From NCBI GenBank assembly GCA_011040545.1, contig DQYM01000144.1, positions 1 through 12,455 of the forward strand: DNA of 12,455 nucleotides, in the 5' to 3' direction. A program made the position numbers and the translations under genes. The DNA is from Candidatus Bathyarchaeota archaeon (GTDB lineage: Archaea; Thermoproteota; Bathyarchaeia; EX4484-135). The notes beneath the pieces were generated by a model that saw only the letters and a program-made list of their open reading frames with translations, was not told the origin of the DNA and did no database searches. This document shows positions 3,560-11,937 of the stretch, piece by piece; positions within the stretch are counted from its first letter, which is position 1, and each line of letters opens with the position of its first letter.

Positions 3560-6500
3560 ATGGGAGTAGGGATCTACTACTACTTAACTCCTCCACAAAT
3601 GTTTCTCGCTCAGGGGAAGAGGGGGCAGGTTGCAAGCCAAGCCCAGGAGAAGCTCTTCCTCACCATATGGGATGAGGAAGCCGTAGATCCTAGGTTCACG
3701 GGTGGCAAGGGGGCAGGCCTAGCCAAGATATACAGGGCCATAGCCGACCTAAGGTCCATTGGCCTCCCTGTTGATGTCCCATTTGCAGTTATACTTGGCC
3801 CTCCCTTCGTTAGGAGGCTGCTTGCATCAAACCCTGAGATCCTAAGGAAGGTTAGGGTGCTAGAGGAAGCCTTAAGCAGGGGCGAGGAGGTTGGCCCCCT
3901 CCTAGCTGAGATAAGGGAGCTCATAATGAAGCTTAAGTTCCCGCCAGAGCTTGAGGAGGCACTGGAGGAGGCCGTAGAGCTCCTAAGGGAGGAGGGGCTG
4001 AAGGCTGGCAAGGAGGAGCCAATAAGGGTAGCCGTCCGCTCAAGTGGCCTTGCAGAGGACCTACCAACTGCTTCCTTTGCTGGCCAGTATGAAACCATAC
4101 TGAACGTTAGGCTAAGCAATAGGGAGGAGCTCAAGGAGGCCATACTCAAGTGCCTAGCATCCATATACGGCGATAGGGTAACCGATTACAGGCAGAAGCT
4201 AAGGGAGAGGGGCCTTAAGATACCAAGTGAAGTAGAGATATGCTCAAGGGGCCTCTTCTCCATAATCCTACAGCTGATGGTTGATTCAGAGTGGTCGGGG
4301 GTTGGCTTCTCCATAGAAACGGAATCTGGCCACCCAAAGGTATTCAAGTCTACTGCCTGGCTTGGCCTTGGTGAGCTTGGCGTTCAGGGGAAGGTCCCCA
4401 CAGCTGAGATCTTCGCTGCTAAGATAGGTGAGAAGAGGCCTGTAGAGGTATTTGGGAAGCGGGTTCCAAGCTCGGTGGTATGCCTTGGTATAAACCCACC
4501 ATCCAAGCCCCAGAGGGAGATGCTAAAGTGGGATCCAGATAAGGGGAAGAACGTCATAGTAGAAGTAAAGGAGCCAATTAACCCAAGGATAGCCAATGAT
4601 GCACAAGCCACGTTGGTGGCCCTCGCAGTTGAGCACCTTGAGGAGAAGGTCGGCAAGGGGAAGCCAGTTGATGTGGAGTTCGCTTGGGAGAAGGGGCGCT
4701 TGTACTTGCTCCAGGTAAGGCCTGAAACCGTCCATGCTACCAAGAGCCGAGCTATCATAGAGAACTACGTCCTTGAGGAAGAGCCACCACCAGATGCCCT
4801 AATCGGCACTGGCCTAAACGTGGGGACTAAGATAGCAAGTGGGCCACTAATGCCCTTGCTCTTTGGCGACCTACCAACCGAGGAGCTCAGCTTTAGGATA
4901 AGGCTGCTTAAGCGCATACTAAAGGAGTTCGTGGATAAGTTCAAGTTAAAGCCCATAATCTACACCAGCATAACAAGCCCTCCCTGGGAGCCAGTGATGA
5001 AGAGGGACCTGCTCTCTGGCATAATAACTGAGCTAGGCAATAGGACGAGCCACCCAGCTATAATAAGCCGTGAGGAAGGGCTTGCCTGCAGCGTGGGCAC
5101 GAGGGGCCTCTCGGAGCACTTGGGGGAGCTAGAGGATCGCTACTGGGGGGCTGCCTGCATGAAGTGCGATTTCTGCTCAGTTGGCGAGGTCGGGAAGGAC
5201 CCCATGCCAGAGGTATGCCCTGCCTGTGGGGCTGGGCTCTTCACCGTAGTAGCTAAGGAGCCAGTTACGCTTGATTGCAGCAAGGGCGAGGCCCGTGTCT
5301 ACAGGGGGGCACTTAAGTTCAGGGTTGAGGTAAGGGAGGTACGTGAGATACCTAGGCCTGAAACGAGGGTAGCCGTTAACTGTGGCTCACCAATGGAGGC
5401 CCTGAACGTATCGCTCATCCCAGGCGTTAGCAAGGTCGGGCTAGCGAGGGAGGAGTTCATAGCTGCTTGGATACAGGTCCATCCTGTGTTCTGTATAAAG
5501 GCAAGCAAGATTAAATCAGAAGGTGGCTTCTGGGCACCAGAGGTAGAGGAGCTCTTCCCACCTGGCGTTGACCCAAGGGAGGAGTGGGTCTACAGGCTTA
5601 CATTAGGCATGAGCTTGATAGCTGCTTCCTTCTACCCAAGGGAAGTTATACTACGCTTCTCCGACTTCAAGACAAATGAGTATGCTACTTTAATAGGCGC
5701 TGTACACTACGAGCTTGATTGCCCTAAGTGCGGGAAGGGGCTTGCTCTAAGGGAGCACAGCACGTGTCCAATATGTGGCTCACCAGTTAGGGCCAGGAAG
5801 GTAGAGCTAGAGCCAGTTGAGGCCAACCCCATGATGGGGTGGCGTGGTGTATCACGCTACCTAGATCCAAGGTTCAAGGAGGCCTTCCTAATGGAAGTTG
5901 AGGCCATGATAAGGTGCCATAAGAAGGGCTTAACGAACCTAGTGCCCATGTTCCCATTTGTTAGGCACCCAGAGGAGGCAGAAGCAGTTACAAAGCTAGT
6001 TAAGGAGGTGTTCCTGGCAGAGGGCCTCAAGCCACCTAAGATGATATTCATGGCTGAGGTGCCAAGCATAGGCTTCGTGCCCTACCTCTTCAACCCATAC
6101 TGCGATGGCTACTCATTCGGCACGAACGATTACACACAGCTCATAACTGGCACGGACAGGGACTCGCCCTTCCTCCCATTTAACGAGGACATACCAGCAG
6201 TTAGGATGGCCATAGCTACTGTAGCAGATGCAGCCCACTACGAGAACTACGTGAAGTACGGCATCCTAGGGCCAGTTAGAGAGCACAACAAGCCAGAAGG
6301 GGCCTACGCAAAGGAGCTTGGTATCTGTGGCCAAGCACCAAGCGATCTCCCTGGCTTCCTCAAGTTCCTAGCCGTCTACCTAGATTACGTAAGCGTTAAC
6401 CCAGATGCCGTTATGAGGACGCTTGAGGAGCTTAAGAAGGCTGAGGATGAGCTTAGGGAGCTCTGCAAGGCCTGTGGTATGGATCCTAAGCGCATAGCCC

Positions 6501-6610
6501 TAGAGCTCTCAAGGGAGTTCAACCTATGGGATCCATTTGGGAGGCCAGCCGTAAGCGAGTTCAGGGCTAGGTGGCTAATGGCTAAGCTAGGCATGGAGCC
6601 AGCCTCCTAG
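3560..6610 (+). CDS. ppsA: Phosphoenolpyruvate synthase-like protein with two zinc-ribbon insertions
   Basis: It is predicted to convert ATP, pyruvate and water to PEP, AMP and phosphate in the cytoplasm, the first step of gluconeogenesis. The ATP-grasp domain spans about 30-395: GGKGAG at 48-53, AVRSSGLAEDLPTASFAGQ at 158-176 with R160, GLGE at 269-272, and QVRPETV at 385-391. The swivelling domain holds the phosphohistidine H498 (NRTSHPAI, where many relatives have GRTCHAAI). The C-terminal TIM barrel has SDFKTNEY 701-708, NPMMGWRG 756-763, E833, FGTNDYTQL 853-861, DRDS 866-869 and catalytic C923 (GICGQAPSD). All key residues are present. At 1016 residues it is about 200 longer than usual. 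Much of the excess is two Cys4 ribbons: C533/C536/C539 with C553/C556 after the swivelling domain, and C721/C724 with C736/C739 inside the barrel loop between TNEY and NPMMG. It has its own promoter and ribosome-binding site; ATG 3599 is a less likely start. A paralogous substrate remains possible. Confidence 0.88.
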   Translation: MGVGIYYYLTPPQMFLAQGKRGQVASQAQEKLFLTIWDEEAVDPRFTGGKGAGLAKIYRAIADLRSIGLPVDVPFAVILGPPFVRRLLASNPEILRKVRVLEEALSRGEEVGPLLAEIRELIMKLKFPPELEEALEEAVELLREEGLKAGKEEPIRVAVRSSGLAEDLPTASFAGQYETILNVRLSNREELKEAILKCLASIYGDRVTDYRQKLRERGLKIPSEVEICSRGLFSIILQLMVDSEWSGVGFSIETESGHPKVFKSTAWLGLGELGVQGKVPTAEIFAAKIGEKRPVEVFGKRVPSSVVCLGINPPSKPQREMLKWDPDKGKNVIVEVKEPINPRIANDAQATLVALAVEHLEEKVGKGKPVDVEFAWEKGRLYLLQVRPETVHATKSRAIIENYVLEEEPPPDALIGTGLNVGTKIASGPLMPLLFGDLPTEELSFRIRLLKRILKEFVDKFKLKPIIYTSITSPPWEPVMKRDLLSGIITELGNRTSHPAIISREEGLACSVGTRGLSEHLGELEDRYWGAACMKCDFCSVGEVGKDPMPEVCPACGAGLFTVVAKEPVTLDCSKGEARVYRGALKFRVEVREVREIPRPETRVAVNCGSPMEALNVSLIPGVSKVGLAREEFIAAWIQVHPVFCIKASKIKSEGGFWAPEVEELFPPGVDPREEWVYRLTLGMSLIAASFYPREVILRFSDFKTNEYATLIGAVHYELDCPKCGKGLALREHSTCPICGSPVRARKVELEPVEANPMMGWRGVSRYLDPRFKEAFLMEVEAMIRCHKKGLTNLVPMFPFVRHPEEAEAVTKLVKEVFLAEGLKPPKMIFMAEVPSIGFVPYLFNPYCDGYSFGTNDYTQLITGTDRDSPFLPFNEDIPAVRMAIATVADAAHYENYVKYGILGPVREHNKPEGAYAKELGICGQAPSDLPGFLKFLAVYLDYVSVNPDAVMRTLEELKKAEDELRELCKACGMDPKRIALELSREFNLWDPFGRPAVSEFRARWLMAKLGMEPAS

Positions 6611-6617
6611 GGCATCG

Positions 6618-6630
6618 CTTAAGATTATAT
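6618..6630 (+). promoter_or_regulatory. TATA-like region ahead of the small-protein/ATPase cassette
   Basis: CTTAAGATTATAT begins 8 nt after the PEP synthase stop. Either CTTAAG or TTATAT could be the TATA element, with a start near 6645-6653. The distance from TTATAT to the codon at 6666 (about 38 nt) is close to the TATA-to-ATG distance of the sister gene at 6965 (about 35 nt). Confidence 0.5.
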
Positions 6631-6665
6631 CCTTCCCTAGCTACACTTGTCAGGGGTGTAAGAGC

Positions 6666-6917
6666 ACGTTAAGGAAGCTTAAGAAGGCCCTGAGGGAGTT
6701 CGTATTCGGTGCTACTACTTACGAGATGGCTAAGACGTTTGTGGATATGATAACTTACAATACATATGCCATAATGATGTGCGCCCTTGGCGATATGCTA
6801 GGCTACCCAACTTCCTGCTTCTACAAGCTTAGGCTCCTCCCCATCGTCCTCACACGCATAGACGCCTGGAAGAAGTTCATGCTTAAGGAGAGGGATATAA
6901 CGGAGCGAGCGAGGTAA
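6666..6917 (+). CDS. Small partner-like protein 1 of the ArsA-type ATPase cassette; start unclear
   Basis: This small protein (63 residues from ATG 6726, about 83 from 6666) has no family I recognise. It is clearly a sister of the next gene. They align without gaps from KKALREFVFG (6681 on) to LGDMLG, then with a one-residue gap through LRLLP, a Trp-Lys pair and an ERD-x-T ending. Because KKALREFVFG, upstream of ATG 6726, matches KKALKELIYG in the sister, coding extends at least to about 6681. Yet no ATG, GTG or TTG occurs in this frame between the stop at 6588 and 6726. An AGGGGTG at 6652-6658 points to ACG 6666 as the start position. The middle (about 45-60 of the alignment) is hydrophobic and helical. 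It sits between its own TATA box and a second promoter for the sister gene. Confidence 0.62.
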   Translation, partial: TLRKLKKALREFVFGATTYEMAKTFVDMITYNTYAIMMCALGDMLGYPTSCFYKLRLLPIVLTRIDAWKKFMLKERDITERAR

Positions 6918-6926
6918 GGGGAAAGG

Positions 6927-6932
6927 TTTAAA
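6927..6932 (+). promoter_or_regulatory. TATA box for small partner-like protein 2 and the ATPases
   Basis: TTTAAA, preceded by a purine-rich GGGAAAGG element resembling BRE, lies in the 47-bp gap between the two small genes. It predicts a transcript start near 6955, just before GGGGTGG (6954-6960) and ATG 6965. This makes the GTG at 6944 upstream of the transcript and therefore unlikely as a start. Confidence 0.65.
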
Positions 6933-6964
6933 GACACAACCACGTGGCTTTAAGGGGTGGTCGG

Positions 6965-7255
6965 ATGGCTGAGGGGCCAAAGCAGGAGGCGAAAGCTGAG
7001 GGAAAGGGTGGCGTGAAGAAGGCCCTCAAGGAGCTTATCTACGGTATGGCCGTTCACGACATGGTTCGCTACGCCCTAAAGACACGAATGTACCTTGAGC
7101 ACCTGTTCATGCTCATAACGCTCGGCGATATGCTTGGCATACCGCTCCTACCGCCATATTACTCGCTAAGGCTGCTGCCCTACGCTGTCCCGAACATCGC
7201 CACGTGGAAGAGGAGGCTGTTCAGGGAGAGGGACTTCACGGATGCCCTCTACTAG
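6965..7255 (+). CDS. Small partner-like protein 2 of the ArsA-type ATPase cassette
   Basis: This is a 96-residue protein of unknown function. It has a Lys/Glu-rich, probably flexible N-terminus (about residues 1-17), then a helical region KKALKELIYG, a hydrophobic stretch ending LGDMLGIP, then YYSLRLLP, a W-K pair and RERDFTD near the C-terminus. The GDMLG, LRLLP, WK and ERD-x-T positions are shared with the gene just upstream, so the two arose by duplication and have diverged. Start ATG 6965 is favoured by GGGGTGG at 6954-6960 and by the TATA box at 6927-6932; GTG 6944 would lie ahead of the expected transcript start. A gap of 40 bp separates it from the first ATPase, so it is likely co-transcribed. 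A role as partner, adaptor or substrate-binding protein of the ATPases is inferred from position only. Confidence 0.75.
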   Translation: MAEGPKQEAKAEGKGGVKKALKELIYGMAVHDMVRYALKTRMYLEHLFMLITLGDMLGIPLLPPYYSLRLLPYAVPNIATWKRRLFRERDFTDALY

Positions 7256-7270
7256 GTGGCCCATGCCCTA

Positions 7271-7277
7271 GGAGGTG
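7271..7277 (+). promoter_or_regulatory. Ribosome-binding site that questions the ATPase 1 start
   Basis: GGAGGTG is a near-perfect archaeal Shine-Dalgarno sequence, but ATG 7296 is 18 nt downstream, too far. A CTG at 7284 in the same frame lies 6 nt away and would add LPET to the N-terminus. The second ATPase gene has the equivalent GGGAGGTG 7 nt ahead of its GTG and carries a similar short N-terminal extension. Confidence 0.5.
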
Positions 7278-7295
7278 GTGTAGCTGCCTGAAACG

Positions 7296-8306
7296 ATGAG
7301 GGAGTTCTTTGAGAGGAGGCCAGAGCTAAAGGTCATCACATATGCTGGCAAGGGTGGCCTTGGCAAGACCACGTGTAGTGCAGCTACTGCCTACTGGCTA
7401 GCCATAAAGAAGGGGAAGAAGTGCCTTTGCTTTAGCACGGACCCACAAGCTAGCTTAAGCGATATATTTGAGCGAGATATATTTGGCAAGGGGGTCCAGA
7501 GCTTCGGCCCAGGCCTATACGTGCTTGAGATAGATGCAGATAAGCGTATAGCAGATTACCAAGAGGAGATAAGGCGTAGGATAAAGGAGATGTACGGGCT
7601 TGATGAGATACCGAAGGAGATAGATGAGTACATCAAATCAGCTGCAGCTGAGCCAGCCATGCATGAGTCAGCTACGTACGATGCCATGGCAGAGCTACTG
7701 GCCAAGGGCGAGTACGACTACTACATATTTGATATGCCACCCTTTGGCCACGGCATACGTATGGTTAGCATGGCCTTCATACTTGATGCCTGGATTGATA
7801 AGATAACAGAGGCCAGGATGGAGGCCCAGAAGTACAGGGAGGCCATAGAGCTGCTGAGGGGCACGGTTGAGATGGAGCGTGAAGACATGATGCTTAAGGA
7901 CCTCATGGAGATAAGGGAGAAGCTAGACTTCTTCAGGGATGTCCTAACAGATGAGAAGCGCTCTGCCTTCTTCATGGTCATAGTACCTGAGAAGATGGCC
8001 ATCTTGGATACAGAGAGGGCGCTGGATATGTTCGCTAAGCTAGATATGAGGCTAAGTGGCATAATAGTAAACATGGTCTACCCAGTTAGCCTACTTAAGA
8101 GGCCAGATGTAGGCCCCTACCTCCGTAACCGTATAAAAATGCAGCAGAAGTACATGGATATCATATGGGATAAGTTCGGCGATTACATAAGGGCCGTGCT
8201 GCCCATGTATGATCGTGAGCCAAAGGGCCTTGAGATGATTGCCCGTGTAGCAGAGGATCTATTCGGCTGGAGCCCTGAGGGGGAGGTGTGGTGGCGTGAG
8301 CAGTGA
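7296..8306 (+). CDS. ArsA/Get3-like ATPase 1, intact catalytic switches
   Basis: This is a 336-residue member of the SIMIBI-class ArsA/Get3 ATPases, which act as nucleotide-driven dimers to move tail-anchored proteins or metalloids; here the cargo is unknown. The deviant P-loop is AGKGGLGKTT at 17-26 with signature K19 and Walker K24. Switch I is FSTDPQASLSD at 46-56, with the catalytic Asp at D49 (equivalent to yeast Get3 D57). Switch II is FDMPPFGHGIR at 145-155 (D146). The adenine-side Asn is N259 (IIVNMV). The C-terminal KMQQKYMDII and PMYDREPKGLEMI match Get3 positions, but the zinc-binding CxxC of Get3 is absent. The helical part between 165 and 220 is rich in Met and charged residues. 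The start is ATG 7296 or, by ribosome-binding-site spacing, CTG 7284. It overlaps ATPase 2 by 11 nt. Confidence 0.88.
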   Translation: MREFFERRPELKVITYAGKGGLGKTTCSAATAYWLAIKKGKKCLCFSTDPQASLSDIFERDIFGKGVQSFGPGLYVLEIDADKRIADYQEEIRRRIKEMYGLDEIPKEIDEYIKSAAAEPAMHESATYDAMAELLAKGEYDYYIFDMPPFGHGIRMVSMAFILDAWIDKITEARMEAQKYREAIELLRGTVEMEREDMMLKDLMEIREKLDFFRDVLTDEKRSAFFMVIVPEKMAILDTERALDMFAKLDMRLSGIIVNMVYPVSLLKRPDVGPYLRNRIKMQQKYMDIIWDKFGDYIRAVLPMYDREPKGLEMIARVAEDLFGWSPEGEVWWREQ

Positions 8307-9318
8307 GAGGATGAGGTTTGTGGACTTCGTGCGCTCACGGCCAGAGCTGAAGTTCCTCTTCACTGGTGGCAAGGGAGGCGTTGGCAAGACGGTAGCAGCA
8401 GCTGGCATGGCCTACTACTTCGCTACCCAGGGGCAGAAGGTGCTGCTAGTTTCCCTTAACCCAGTTCACTCCCTATCAAGCGTCTTCGGCCAGGACCTCT
8501 GGGGAGGGCAGATAAAGCCCGTGGAGGGGGTTGAGAACCTATGGGCCTGTGAGGTGGACATAAGCGATGTTATAGCACGCTACAGGGAGATGCTTGGCAG
8601 GAGGCTACGTGAGTTCTTCAAGTGGGCTGATATACCAATAAACCCTGAGCCCTTCATAGATATAGCCACTACTAACCCAGCCTTTGAGGAATCAGCTATG
8701 TTTGATAAGATGGTAGATATAATGCTTGAGCAAGGGCCTAACTACGATAAGGTAGTATTTGATTGCGCTGCTGTAGCAAATGCCATAAGGCTAATTGGCC
8801 TAAGCAAGATCTACACGCTCTGGCTCCAGAGGATGATAGAGAGCCGTAAGGAGGCCCTATCGCTTAGGGTTAAGCTATCCTTTAGGAAGGAGAAGGTCAT
8901 GGAGGAGATAAAGAAGGACCCACTTATGGCCGACCTAATAGCCATGGATAAGCGCATAAGGGCAGCCAAGCAGTTCCTAACGGACCCTGAGAGGACGGCC
9001 TTCTTCTTCGTTACGCTCCCACTAGCCCTGCCTATCTCAGTTGTGAAGCGCTTCATACGCATGGTGAAGGCCTTTGACATACCAATCGGTGGCGTCATAG
9101 TGAACGGCGTCATACCCAAGAGCGTGGTTGAGCGTGGCGAGAAATCGGAGTACATGCTTAACAAGCTGAGGGAGCAGGAGGGCTACCTAGCCATCATAGA
9201 GAGGGACCTCGGCCCACTGGTGAGGGCCTACATACCGCTCTACGAGACAGAGGTAGCAGGCGTGGACATGATAGCTAGGGTAGCAGAGGCACTCGTGTCA
9301 GGTGAGATGCCAAAATAA
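8296..9318 (+). CDS. ArsA/Get3-like ATPase 2, altered catalytic switches
   Basis: This 340-residue protein is homologous to ATPase 1 along its length. The P-loop GGKGGVGKT at 24-32 is complete. Switch I reads SLNPVHSL at 53-60, with N55 where Get3 and ATPase 1 have the catalytic Asp. Switch II reads FDCAAVANAIR at 155-165, keeping D156 but losing the usual P-T-G-H (here A-V-A-N). The nucleotide-side Asn is N270. It should therefore bind ATP but hydrolyse it poorly, if at all. No CxxC zinc motif is present. The start GTG 8296 has GGGAGGTG at 8281-8288, 7 nt away, and overlaps the ATPase 1 stop by 11 nt, so the two are probably made in matched amounts. An asymmetric heterodimer with ATPase 1 is inferred, comparable in idea to the unequal halves of bacterial ArsA. 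Confidence 0.87.
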   Translation: MSSERMRFVDFVRSRPELKFLFTGGKGGVGKTVAAAGMAYYFATQGQKVLLVSLNPVHSLSSVFGQDLWGGQIKPVEGVENLWACEVDISDVIARYREMLGRRLREFFKWADIPINPEPFIDIATTNPAFEESAMFDKMVDIMLEQGPNYDKVVFDCAAVANAIRLIGLSKIYTLWLQRMIESRKEALSLRVKLSFRKEKVMEEIKKDPLMADLIAMDKRIRAAKQFLTDPERTAFFFVTLPLALPISVVKRFIRMVKAFDIPIGGVIVNGVIPKSVVERGEKSEYMLNKLREQEGYLAIIERDLGPLVRAYIPLYETEVAGVDMIARVAEALVSGEMPK

Positions 9319-9342: not shown

Positions 9343-11184
9343 TTACTCTTCGGCCTTCTCCTCAGCTTCCTCAGGTGGAGCCCTCTTGAAGCGGAAGTAG
9401 GAGCGGAAGCCATCGTAGGTCACGATGAAGCCCAGGATTATCAGCACGATGCCGAAGATGAAGAATATCACGTTCAGCGTCATGGCCGTGTAGTACCAAA
9501 CACCCCTGTAACCAGCCTCTAGCTCGGCCTTCACTAGGTCGGCCAACGGCGATTTGGCCAGAGGCTTGCCGAACATTATGCCTACCTGCTTCTCAGGTGG
9601 CAGGCCAAGGTAGGCCAGGCCGAGGAAGACGAAGAACGTCTCCCATATCAGGGCGCCCTCACAGGTTACTATCATGAATATGGCTGGCGCCAGGTTGAAT
9701 ATGGTCGGCTTCTTCACCTTAGCCAGGTAGATGCTGGTCAGTAGGAGGGCCAGGCCAGCTAACAGCTGGTTTGAGCCACCGAAGAGGAGCCATAGGTTCA
9801 GCCAGGCACCAGACATGGCGAAGGCAGCACCTACGGCCAGGCAGATGGCGGAGGCCACGTACTTATTGCCTATTAGCGTCCTAAGGGCTGGCCTAGCTGC
9901 CGTTGCCTCAGCCATAGCTAGCCTGAAGAACCTAACGACCATCTGCTCTACTGTGATGGCATATAGCTCTAGGAAGGCACCGAAGAAGGCAATGAGGAAT
10001 ATGTTATCTGGGGTCGTGCCAAACATGGGTGCTACTAGCTTACAGGCACCAGCTACGAAGCAGCCCCACTTGGTCCCGTACTTAAGGACCTCCTCACTCG
10101 TGAGGACCATGTAGGCAGCTAGAGCTGAGAGGGCTAGGAGGCCCTCCATTAGCATGGCACCAGCACCAACGGGCAGGGCATCGGTTTCTACATCCAGCTG
10201 CCTAGCTGAACCGCTCGTGCCAACTAGGCTGTGCCAGCCTGAGATAGCACCACAAGCAATAGATACCATTAGGATGGGCCAGACTGGCCCAACGCCCGTC
10301 TTGTAGATGCCAGGTATATCACCTGTGAAGGCTGGCTGCTGGATGGCCACGCCAGTAGCTGGTGATACGAATGCAGAAACTATTATCAGTATGACGCCTA
10401 CAGAACAGGGCCAGAAGGCTGCGTAGTTTATGGGCTGGGTCCACCAGATTATGGGCGTTACGGCGCCTATGAAGCAGAATATGGCGGTTATGAGCATGCC
10501 TAGGTACAGGCCATTCCTGCCGAGACCCATAAGGGCGTTCGGGTAGAGGTCCTGGACTAGGCCACCTACGTAAATGCCTATGATGATTATTATGATGCCT
10601 ATTATAGTGCTGTAGGTGATCGGCACCCTCATCCTGTACATGAGTAGGGCCATGATGAGGCCAGATATGATGGTGAATATCACTACCATTAGCGAGCCAG
10701 GCCATAGGTAGAAGAACAGGCCACATAGCAGCACGAAGACGCTTGTGATCAGTATCAAGTAGAATAGCAGGAAGCCTATCAGGGCCGTCCTAGCCCTTGG
10801 GCTAATGAGCTCGTAGGTCAGCGGGCCCATGGTCCTGCCTTCATTGCGGACCGACATGAAGAGGGCGCTGTAATCGTGTATCCAGCCTATGAAGAAGTTG
10901 CCTACCAGCAGCCATATTAGGGCGGGTATGAAGCCGAAGCTAAGGCCGATGAAGGGCCCTAGTATTGGCCCAAGGGCAGCAATGCCCTTGAACTGGAAGC
11001 CGAACAGCACGTACTTGCTGGTCGGGAAGAACTCTATGCCGTCCATGTACATGTGGGCGGGCGTCGCACGCTTGGGGTCGGGCGACCATACATGCTTATC
11101 ATACCACCTGGCGTACAGGAAGTAGGCAGCGCCATATACTATGACGCCCGCCAGCACGAAGTATAATGGGTACCACTCTGCCAT
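9343..11184 (-). CDS. cstA: CstA-family carbon starvation protein / peptide or pyruvate transporter
   Basis: This 613-residue polytopic membrane protein has about 15 or more hydrophobic segments. Signatures of the family are visible: the TP pair at 41-42, DGIEFFPTSKYVLFGFQFKG starting at 48, GPILGPFIGLSFGFIPALIW at 72-91, IHDYSALFMSVRNEG at 102-116, the core IACGAISGWHSLVGT at 309-323, METD-type acidic DVETDA at 331-336, GAMLMEG at 342-348, and WLLFGGSNQLLAGLAL at 465-480. The tail is strongly acidic (PPEEAEEKAEE). Known relatives take up peptides (CstA) or pyruvate (BtsT), probably coupled to protons. ATG 11184 follows GGAGG at 11197-11193, 8 nt away, and a TATA box at 11225-11219. It converges on the ATPase genes. 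Length is slightly below that of E. coli CstA, but motifs are complete. Substrate cannot be read from the sequence. Confidence 0.92.
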   Translation of the reverse strand: MAEWYPLYFVLAGVIVYGAAYFLYARWYDKHVWSPDPKRATPAHMYMDGIEFFPTSKYVLFGFQFKGIAALGPILGPFIGLSFGFIPALIWLLVGNFFIGWIHDYSALFMSVRNEGRTMGPLTYELISPRARTALIGFLLFYLILITSVFVLLCGLFFYLWPGSLMVVIFTIISGLIMALLMYRMRVPITYSTIIGIIIIIIGIYVGGLVQDLYPNALMGLGRNGLYLGMLITAIFCFIGAVTPIIWWTQPINYAAFWPCSVGVILIIVSAFVSPATGVAIQQPAFTGDIPGIYKTGVGPVWPILMVSIACGAISGWHSLVGTSGSARQLDVETDALPVGAGAMLMEGLLALSALAAYMVLTSEEVLKYGTKWGCFVAGACKLVAPMFGTTPDNIFLIAFFGAFLELYAITVEQMVVRFFRLAMAEATAARPALRTLIGNKYVASAICLAVGAAFAMSGAWLNLWLLFGGSNQLLAGLALLLTSIYLAKVKKPTIFNLAPAIFMIVTCEGALIWETFFVFLGLAYLGLPPEKQVGIMFGKPLAKSPLADLVKAELEAGYRGVWYYTAMTLNVIFFIFGIVLIILGFIVTYDGFRSYFRFKRAPPEEAEEKAEE

Positions 11185-11253: not shown

Positions 11254-11937
11254 TTGGACTACACAGGCTGGGAGCTACCCGTGCTCATCGGCTTAACCGT
11301 GTTCTTAGTGGCCTCCTATGCATTTGGTGCTATAGTAAATAGGCGGATACAGCGCTCCTTCTGGAAGGCACTTAGGGCTGAGGTAAGGCGCTACGCAAGG
11401 CGTGTCAGCTTCAAGGGGTTTGGCTCCTCAGGTTTTAAGGTAGGATTTAAGCCAAGGGAAGGCCCCCTTAGGAAGGTAGAGGTTTCGCTCATACTACTAG
11501 CTAGGGAAATGCTCCTCTACCTCCCAGTAGCCTATGCCCTGGGGAGGAGGGATAGGGTCATAATAAAGGCCAACCTAGCTAAGAAGCCTACCTTCTACCT
11601 TGAGATCTTGAGCAAGAAGACACCTCTTAAGGGGGAGATAAAGCTAAAGATAGAGAAGCTCAAGCCCGTTGAGCTAGGGGTACTAACAAAGCATATGAGC
11701 ATAGGATCAAGTAGGCCGAAGAAGGCAGCTGAATTGCTATCTGGCACGGCTTTTGAACACTTAATAGCCCTTAGAGACTGCCTTGAGCGTTTTTCAATCT
11801 CAAGGGCAGAGCCACACATAATGATGATATGTAGGAGGGATGAGGGGAAGCTAGAAGCCATGTTCAACCTCATAGATGAGGTAGCTAAGGCCCTTGCACA
11901 TCAGGAGGCTCCCCATGGCAGGAGAACGATGAGATAA
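11254..11937 (+). CDS. Unrecognised protein with an N-terminal membrane anchor
   Basis: This 227-residue protein belongs to no family I can name. A single clear hydrophobic helix at about 8-28 is followed by a very basic region (NRRIQRSFWKALRAEVRRYA), pointing to a cytoplasmic C-terminal domain by the positive-inside rule. A second moderately hydrophobic patch at about 78-97 (VSLILLAREMLLYLPVAYAL) may be part of the fold or a re-entrant segment. The rest mixes beta-like Lys-rich stretches (PLKGEIKLKIEKLKP) with a helical C-terminus. TTG 11254 is the only reasonable start: it is the first start after the TATA box and puts the helix at the N-terminus. There is no clear ribosome-binding site, which suits a leaderless transcript. 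It ends in tandem stops TAATAG and overlaps the next gene, on the other strand, by 53 nt. Confidence 0.6.
   Translation: MDYTGWELPVLIGLTVFLVASYAFGAIVNRRIQRSFWKALRAEVRRYARRVSFKGFGSSGFKVGFKPREGPLRKVEVSLILLAREMLLYLPVAYALGRRDRVIIKANLAKKPTFYLEILSKKTPLKGEIKLKIEKLKPVELGVLTKHMSIGSSRPKKAAELLSGTAFEHLIALRDCLERFSISRAEPHIMMICRRDEGKLEAMFNLIDEVAKALAHQEAPHGRRTMR

Follow-up and report, generated by a model that had tools for sequence, protein, structure and literature searches.

The paired ArsA-type ATPases and small sister proteins of a bathyarchaeal contig are part of a CstA transporter module with a putative CCDC47-like protein

Contig DQYM01000144.1 of a Candidatus Bathyarchaeota archaeon (assembly GCA_011040545.1), analysed over its whole length of 12,455 nucleotides (nt; hereafter the window, a single contig of a 1.06-Mb genome that is 86% complete), carries two small sister genes followed by two genes for ArsA/Get3-like ATPases, and it is well supported that this cassette is part of a module around a transporter of the CstA family. 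The original prediction, made from the letters of the window, had described a four-gene cassette in an arrangement it did not recognise. All four genes are real and paralogous in pairs, but the module goes on through a CstA gene and the gene of a protein of 227 amino acids (aa). Furthermore, clusters of ArsA, CstA, CstX and CstY were already described in a 2010 survey (Castillo & Saier 2010, PMC2963123), which makes the cassette a case of a known, little-studied cluster type, its notable parts being an invariant asymmetry of the ATPases and a CCDC47-like CstY. We use the names CstX (small proteins) and CstY (227-aa protein) as matched to that survey by size and context, not by its sequences. 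That survey reports 26 instances of CstA with ArsA, 24 of them also with CstX, and CstY in five archaea; two organisms have a pair of CstX paralogues, one being Thermococcus kodakarensis, which is also in the CstY set. Its authors proposed that CstA draws its energy from ArsA through a CstX linker (PMC2963123). Our literature search on CstX, CstY and CstA found the cluster described only in this survey. The window resembles the surveyed clusters in its CstA, a CstY of about the surveyed ~210 aa with a single transmembrane (TM) segment and single-domain ArsA proteins of ~330 aa; its small proteins have about the size of the ~90-aa CstX, and no ars genes, which the surveyed clusters lack, were found among the ten open reading frames scanned, whereas the strict Asp/Asn pairing of the ATPases, the split of CstX into alpha and beta forms, the occurrence of CstY in bacteria and its relation to CCDC47 are not described in the available text of PMC2963123.

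The evidence for the module is, above all, its gene linkage. A scan of a genome collection with an alignment of the small proteins (A1) yielded 455 relatives, of which the best 80 loci were kept; together with two class relatives (L015, L016), and with L013 and L014 dropped because they duplicate the contigs of L017 and L019, the set comprises 82 loci. In every one of the 69 loci that extend 2300 nt or more beyond CstX-alpha, ArsA-A and then ArsA-B follow downstream of it, a conserved linkage that bears out the partnership originally suggested between small proteins and ATPases, and CstA is present in 41 of the 44 loci with both flanks. For 36 of the 82 loci whole genomes were searched: all 36 contain CstA and 17 contain CstY, and in each of the latter CstY lies 139-4861 nt from CstA (G085 has a further CstY copy at another place). 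Of 300 genomes sampled from the window's phylum (the phylum names of our samples, Thermoproteota, Actinomycetota and Asgard, were assigned by us), 43 have the small protein and 62 have CstA; CstA accompanies the small protein in 42 of the 43, within 5 kb in 40, at 37 kb in one and on another contig in one, and the single genome without CstA (G348) is itself a weak match. Few genomes of the window's class carry the small protein (5 of the 61 sampled). The record titles of the loci name Bathyarchaeota, Asgard-type archaea, Thermoplasmata, Thermoproteota, Bacillota and Chloroflexi, as well as deltaproteobacteria, Actinobacteria, Terriglobia, Bacteroidetes and one Acetobacteraceae bin, and the cluster of the 2010 survey recurs around CstA across many phyla of archaea and bacteria. 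In the window, the gene order is PEP-synthase-like (phosphoenolpyruvate synthase-like) protein, CstX-beta, CstX-alpha, ArsA-A, ArsA-B, CstA, CstY, with the following features:

6660..6917, + strand: CstX-beta (SP1), the divergent small sister, ~85 aa; placed by its homologues P0121-P0127 and by the beta rows of the small-protein tree
6965..7255, + strand: CstX-alpha (SP2), the conserved small protein, 96 aa; placed by homologue starts, the alpha tree group and a weak NF041419 match
7296..8306, + strand: ArsA-A, single-domain ArsA/Get3-like ATPase, 336 aa; GKGGLGKT, switch I DPQAS, switch II GH
8296..9318, + strand: ArsA-B, the partner ATPase, 340 aa; GKGGVGKT, switch I NPVHS (Asn for Asp), switch II AN (Gly-His lost)
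9343..11184, - strand: CstA-family transporter, 613 aa; PF02554 at 1.1e-99, joining the CstX-linked CstA in the CstA tree
11254..11937, + strand: CstY, 227 aa; N-terminal hydrophobic helix and alpha/beta domain, with a predicted CCDC47/TtfA-like fold
3560-6610, + strand: PEP-synthase-like protein, 1016 aa, directly upstream of CstX-beta

Both ATPases are ArsA/Get3-like homologues, as was first proposed: each has one stretch matching PF02374 (4.8e-65 for ArsA-A and 7.5e-55 for ArsA-B), and 115 of 324 aligned residues are identical between them. They differ consistently in their nucleotide switches. In an aligned set including the window, whose A and B rows were pre-filtered by a P-loop letter (L or V, so that P-loop counts hold by construction, and wrong-frame rows dropped out), switch I reads DPQAS in 78/78 A proteins and N-P-[V/I]-H-S in 74/74 B proteins, and switch II has GH in 76/76 readable A and A[N/H] in 73/73 readable B proteins. 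Nine single ArsA proteins linked to the actinobacterial small protein cory-CC-star (CC-star, discussed below) have the canonical DPAHS and GH. In an unrooted ATPase tree, the A (78), B (74) and single actinobacterial (9) proteins each occupy one side of a branch, with support of 99, 99 and 100 in the Shimodaira-Hasegawa-like approximate likelihood ratio test (SH-aLRT). In yeast Get3, an Asp-to-Asn replacement at the corresponding switch I position makes the protein hydrolysis-dead. The simplest reading is that ArsA-A and ArsA-B would form a heterodimer with one competent site. For single-domain proteins, the survey states that the switch I Asp is replaceable by Asn only (PMC2963123). Compared with Get3/TRC40 and ArsA, the window ATPases belong to the same fold family and carry its deviant Walker A motif GKGGhGKT, but Get3/TRC40 has the catalytic switch I Asp in both subunits, whereas the module has Asp in A and Asn in B. 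This invariant pair offers a precise handle on the ways in which ArsA-type ATPases may act for secondary transporters.

Neither arsenic efflux nor a canonical Get3 function fits the module, and both readings were set aside. The arsenite pump uses a two-domain ArsA, in contrast to the single PF02374 stretch in each of two genes here; the CxxC of Get3 is found in neither window ATPase; and the context is that of CstA. Neither ArsB nor ArsR was found among the ten window open reading frames (ORFs) scanned, a scan that left out the ORFs at 19-1038, 1031-2044 and 2185-2670 and the other loci. The doubts raised at the outset about arsenic efflux and standard tail-anchored insertion are supported.

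How does CstA make use of small partners elsewhere? In E. coli, CstA and the gene-linked small protein YbdD import pyruvate, uptake being left at 13% and 20% on deleting either (PMC5847655), and the window is alike in pairing CstA with a small linked gene. YbdD belongs to PF04328, and it was found in only one of the 36 CstX genomes (G064), beside a second CstA. In 119 actinobacterial genomes we counted CstA in 29, YbdD in 10 and model-detected CstX/CC-star in 8, the two partners never occurring together (P 0.018) and all 18 genomes with either carrying CstA; four more of the 29 CstA genomes have a Cys-Cys-ending protein. The best CstA scores against PF02554 were far higher in the YbdD genomes (843-879 bits in 9 of 10, G124 having fragments) than in the eight CstX/CC-star genomes (at most 431), and G064 has both kinds. 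On the CstA tree, partner labels need 5 changes versus a shuffled mean of 24, a figure confounded with taxon sampling, as a single phylum supplies the YbdD and CC-star rows, G064 excepted. CstX and YbdD seem to be alternative small partners for CstA, and no homology between the two was detected. In contrast, CstX and the cory-CC-star family (NF041419) are related in profile comparison (hhalign 94.4%, E 8.8e-8). All 27 members of A1, including window SP1, match this family weakly; CstX-alpha of the window reaches 32.1 bits (cut-off 80) and ends in DALY, not CC. At nine actinobacterial loci (L120-L126, L129, L132), a Cys-Cys-ending protein, five of them model-detected and four (L125, L126, L129, L132) chosen by this ending beside CstA, lies between CstA and one ArsA, and this placement makes a role as CstA partner likely for the cory-CC-star family. 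The homologous small protein stands beside CstA and next to ArsA as it does here, with the difference that the actinobacterial loci have a Cys-Cys end and one canonical ArsA, and the window an A/B pair. Comparison of CC-star with YbdD profiles gave nothing, both alignments being small (9 and 6 sequences), and sequence searches of the PDB returned no match for CstA or CstX. One genome (G074, locus L050) has CstA twice in tandem, accompanied by a single CstX-alpha/ArsA pair and a single beta.

The last member of the module, CstY, has a hydrophobic peak of 2.35 at residues 10-28, and its structure model has a helix at 7-45. The model joins a TM helix to an alpha/beta domain, a predicted fold as in the CCDC47 family PF07946, and closes with a helix at 197-217, with neither a charged C-terminal tail nor latch helices. 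Window CstY has no Pfam match to PF07946, whereas 8 of 26 CstY relatives do (E up to 0.1), the best of them (8.4e-5, 22.3 bits) lying below the gathering score of 27.7. In the Thorarchaeota phylum, 6 of 119 genomes have PF07946 above cut-off, and the long Asgard CCDC47-like forms carry a charged C-terminal tail. Profiles of CstY and of the long and short Asgard forms found no CCDC47 match in PDB sequences, and the CCDC47 link therefore rests on the fold, the PF07946 matches and profile bridges. Judged from the model, CstY looks like a prokaryotic relative of the membrane-protein chaperone CCDC47, differing from CCDC47 of the PAT complex and from mycobacterial TtfA by the missing tail, the missing Pfam match and its place at a CstA locus. 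We regard as rather unlikely the bolder idea that CstY is a true member of the CCDC47 lineage, the CstA-CstX-ArsA/Get3-CstY set an ancient operon in which Get3- and CCDC47-type proteins jointly serve one polytopic membrane protein, and the stand-alone long Asgard forms an intermediate to the eukaryotic translocon part. Prokaryotes have been stated to be without PAT components (PMC9630114); if CstY were a real CCDC47 homologue, this claim would need revision, and CCDC47-type function would become open to study in tractable archaea. For Asterix (PF03669), none of the 119 Thorarchaeota genomes scored above cut-off and three gave weak matches.

Stand-alone long CCDC47-like proteins of 300-305 aa with a charged tail were seen at six loci of the Thorarchaeota phylum (L162, L163, L165, L172, L173, L175), each directly beside a small Ras-type GTPase-like protein of 187-208 aa (6/6, by eye; the six may be close kin); CstA was not matched anywhere in the sequence covered at these loci. 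CstY itself also occurs in bacteria, at L025, L027, L036, L057, L064 and other bacterial loci, compared with the five archaea of PMC2963123.

We judge it an even chance that the cassette is a CstA module in which the ATPases energise or gate CstA through CstX-alpha, with CstY as a scaffold. CstX-alpha would be a small obligatory subunit of CstA, by analogy with YbdD for E. coli CstA; the asymmetric ArsA-A/ArsA-B heterodimer, with its one hydrolysis-competent site, would dock on CstA through CstX-alpha; binding or hydrolysis of ATP would power or gate the import of pyruvate or peptides, following the logic of ArsA on ArsB; and the membrane-anchored, putatively CCDC47/TtfA-like CstY might scaffold the complex, perhaps with CstX-beta. 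The energising or gating step may equally well hold or fail. Several observations weigh against it. CstA is absent from 3 of the 44 well-flanked loci (L051, L062, L077), the Hyperthermus butylicus cluster has no ArsA (PMC2963123), pyruvate uptake by E. coli CstA/YbdD is reported with no ArsA named in the available text of PMC5847655, and 7 of the 29 actinobacterial CstA genomes have no small partner at all. In addition, the homology of CstX to YbdD that its position next to CstA had led us to expect was not detected (hhalign with six YbdD sequences 0.15%; no PF04328 match among the window ORFs scanned), and the structure model of CstX-alpha is of low confidence, with a predicted local distance difference test score (pLDDT) of 69.8. 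Finally, both Get3 and CCDC47 work in membrane-protein biogenesis, which favours the main rival: ArsA-A/B would be a Get3-like chaperone catching segments of CstX or CstA, and CCDC47-like CstY an intramembrane chaperone, the whole inserting or assembling the CstA complex. We consider such a biogenesis machine possible, though doubtful. A further alternative, which seems to us improbable, is an energy or nutrient sensor, in which the ATPase pair would read ATP/ADP and switch CstA off or on without powering it; one seemingly competent and one altered site would suit a switch, and CstA systems have been linked to carbon starvation (PMC5847655, PMC2963123), but sensing and energisation are not separable by sequence.

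With regard to the two small proteins, both ORFs are present, as are the GDMLG, LRLLP, WK and ERD-x-T motifs by which they had been called sisters. Over a core of 79 columns with one 1-residue gap, 29 of 78 aligned residues are identical, and their local BLOSUM62 score of 147 lies so far above the maximum of 2000 shuffles (48; mean 25) that the similarity is not due to chance. The start at 6619 first proposed for SP1 is not backed by a standard start codon: its frame is open upstream to ~6612 and ends at 6917, with no ATG, GTG or TTG before ATG 6726. Its relatives P0121-P0126 reach upstream to about codon 6660 or beyond, and CstX-beta would thus be translated either from a near-cognate start or as a shorter 63-aa product from ATG 6726. 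In L017, a close CstX-beta relative, the first standard start is likewise an internal ATG. SP2 ends at 7255 and has a possible start at GTG 6944, and its relatives P0001 and P0004 start at the site of ATG 6965; the near relative P0004, labelled Candidatus Bathyarchaeota, is 96% identical. The sizes (96 and ~85 aa) and place fit CstX, whose published sequences were not aligned; the surveyed CstX is said to have one TM segment (PMC2963123), while the hydrophobic peak of window alpha is only 1.52. In a small-protein tree of few columns and long branches, a single branch (SH-aLRT 89) sets the 82 ATPase-adjacent alpha rows apart, and the divergent beta copies number 42 rows, alpha and beta having been split at a model score of 128 bits and one row (L053) placed by position. 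Fused proteins with two CstX units were also seen (P0002, P0003, P0005; unit types by eye).

Does each small protein serve one ATPase? The original prediction suggested that an ancestral pair of small protein and ATPase had been duplicated, each small protein perhaps serving one ATPase or both. Two of each are indeed found in the window and in 38 of the 82 loci (some loci being cut short), and at nine actinobacterial loci a single small protein accompanies a single ArsA. The single ArsA proteins form a clean tree group of their own next to A and B, and a 2+2 set could derive from a 1+1 ancestor should the root fall on the actinobacterial side; however, the small-protein and ATPase trees are both unrooted. 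Co-duplication is compatible with the data, does not conflict with the other explanations, and as a historical event alone we hold it to be a tentative possibility. One small protein with both ATPases is found in 35 of the 82 loci and in 14 of 40 well-flanked loci, contrary to one small protein per ATPase. In the window-phylum sample, a second small copy is present in 24 of 26 genomes with a strong alpha, sometimes unlinked (~166 kb away in G416, on another contig in G565), and single-copy loci may therefore hide a second. Furthermore, in five loci (L025, L027, L036, L057, L064) only 10-70 nt separate beta from a CstY gene of the same orientation, and alpha is more than 2.5 kb away, which points beta to CstY and not to an ATPase. 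A one-to-one pairing thus appears very improbable to us. Of the 40 well-flanked loci, 21 have beta together with CstY, 5 have beta without CstY, 2 have CstY without beta and 12 have neither (Fisher p 1e-4). This raw association could not be shown to exceed what kinship among the loci would give, as on the CstA tree (37 of the 40 rows) only 4-5 independent contrasts were available and significance was not reached.

Upstream of the module, the PEP-synthase-like protein shows weak zinc-ribbon matches at about residues 716-747, below cut-off. By eye, one relative (G001) has a pyruvate:ferredoxin-oxidoreductase-like set and another (G002) a lactate/glycolate-dehydrogenase-like pair. Homologues of these pyruvate-context genes occur in only 5 of the 82 CstX loci, two being the G001 and G002 contigs themselves, and the pyruvate context is therefore local.

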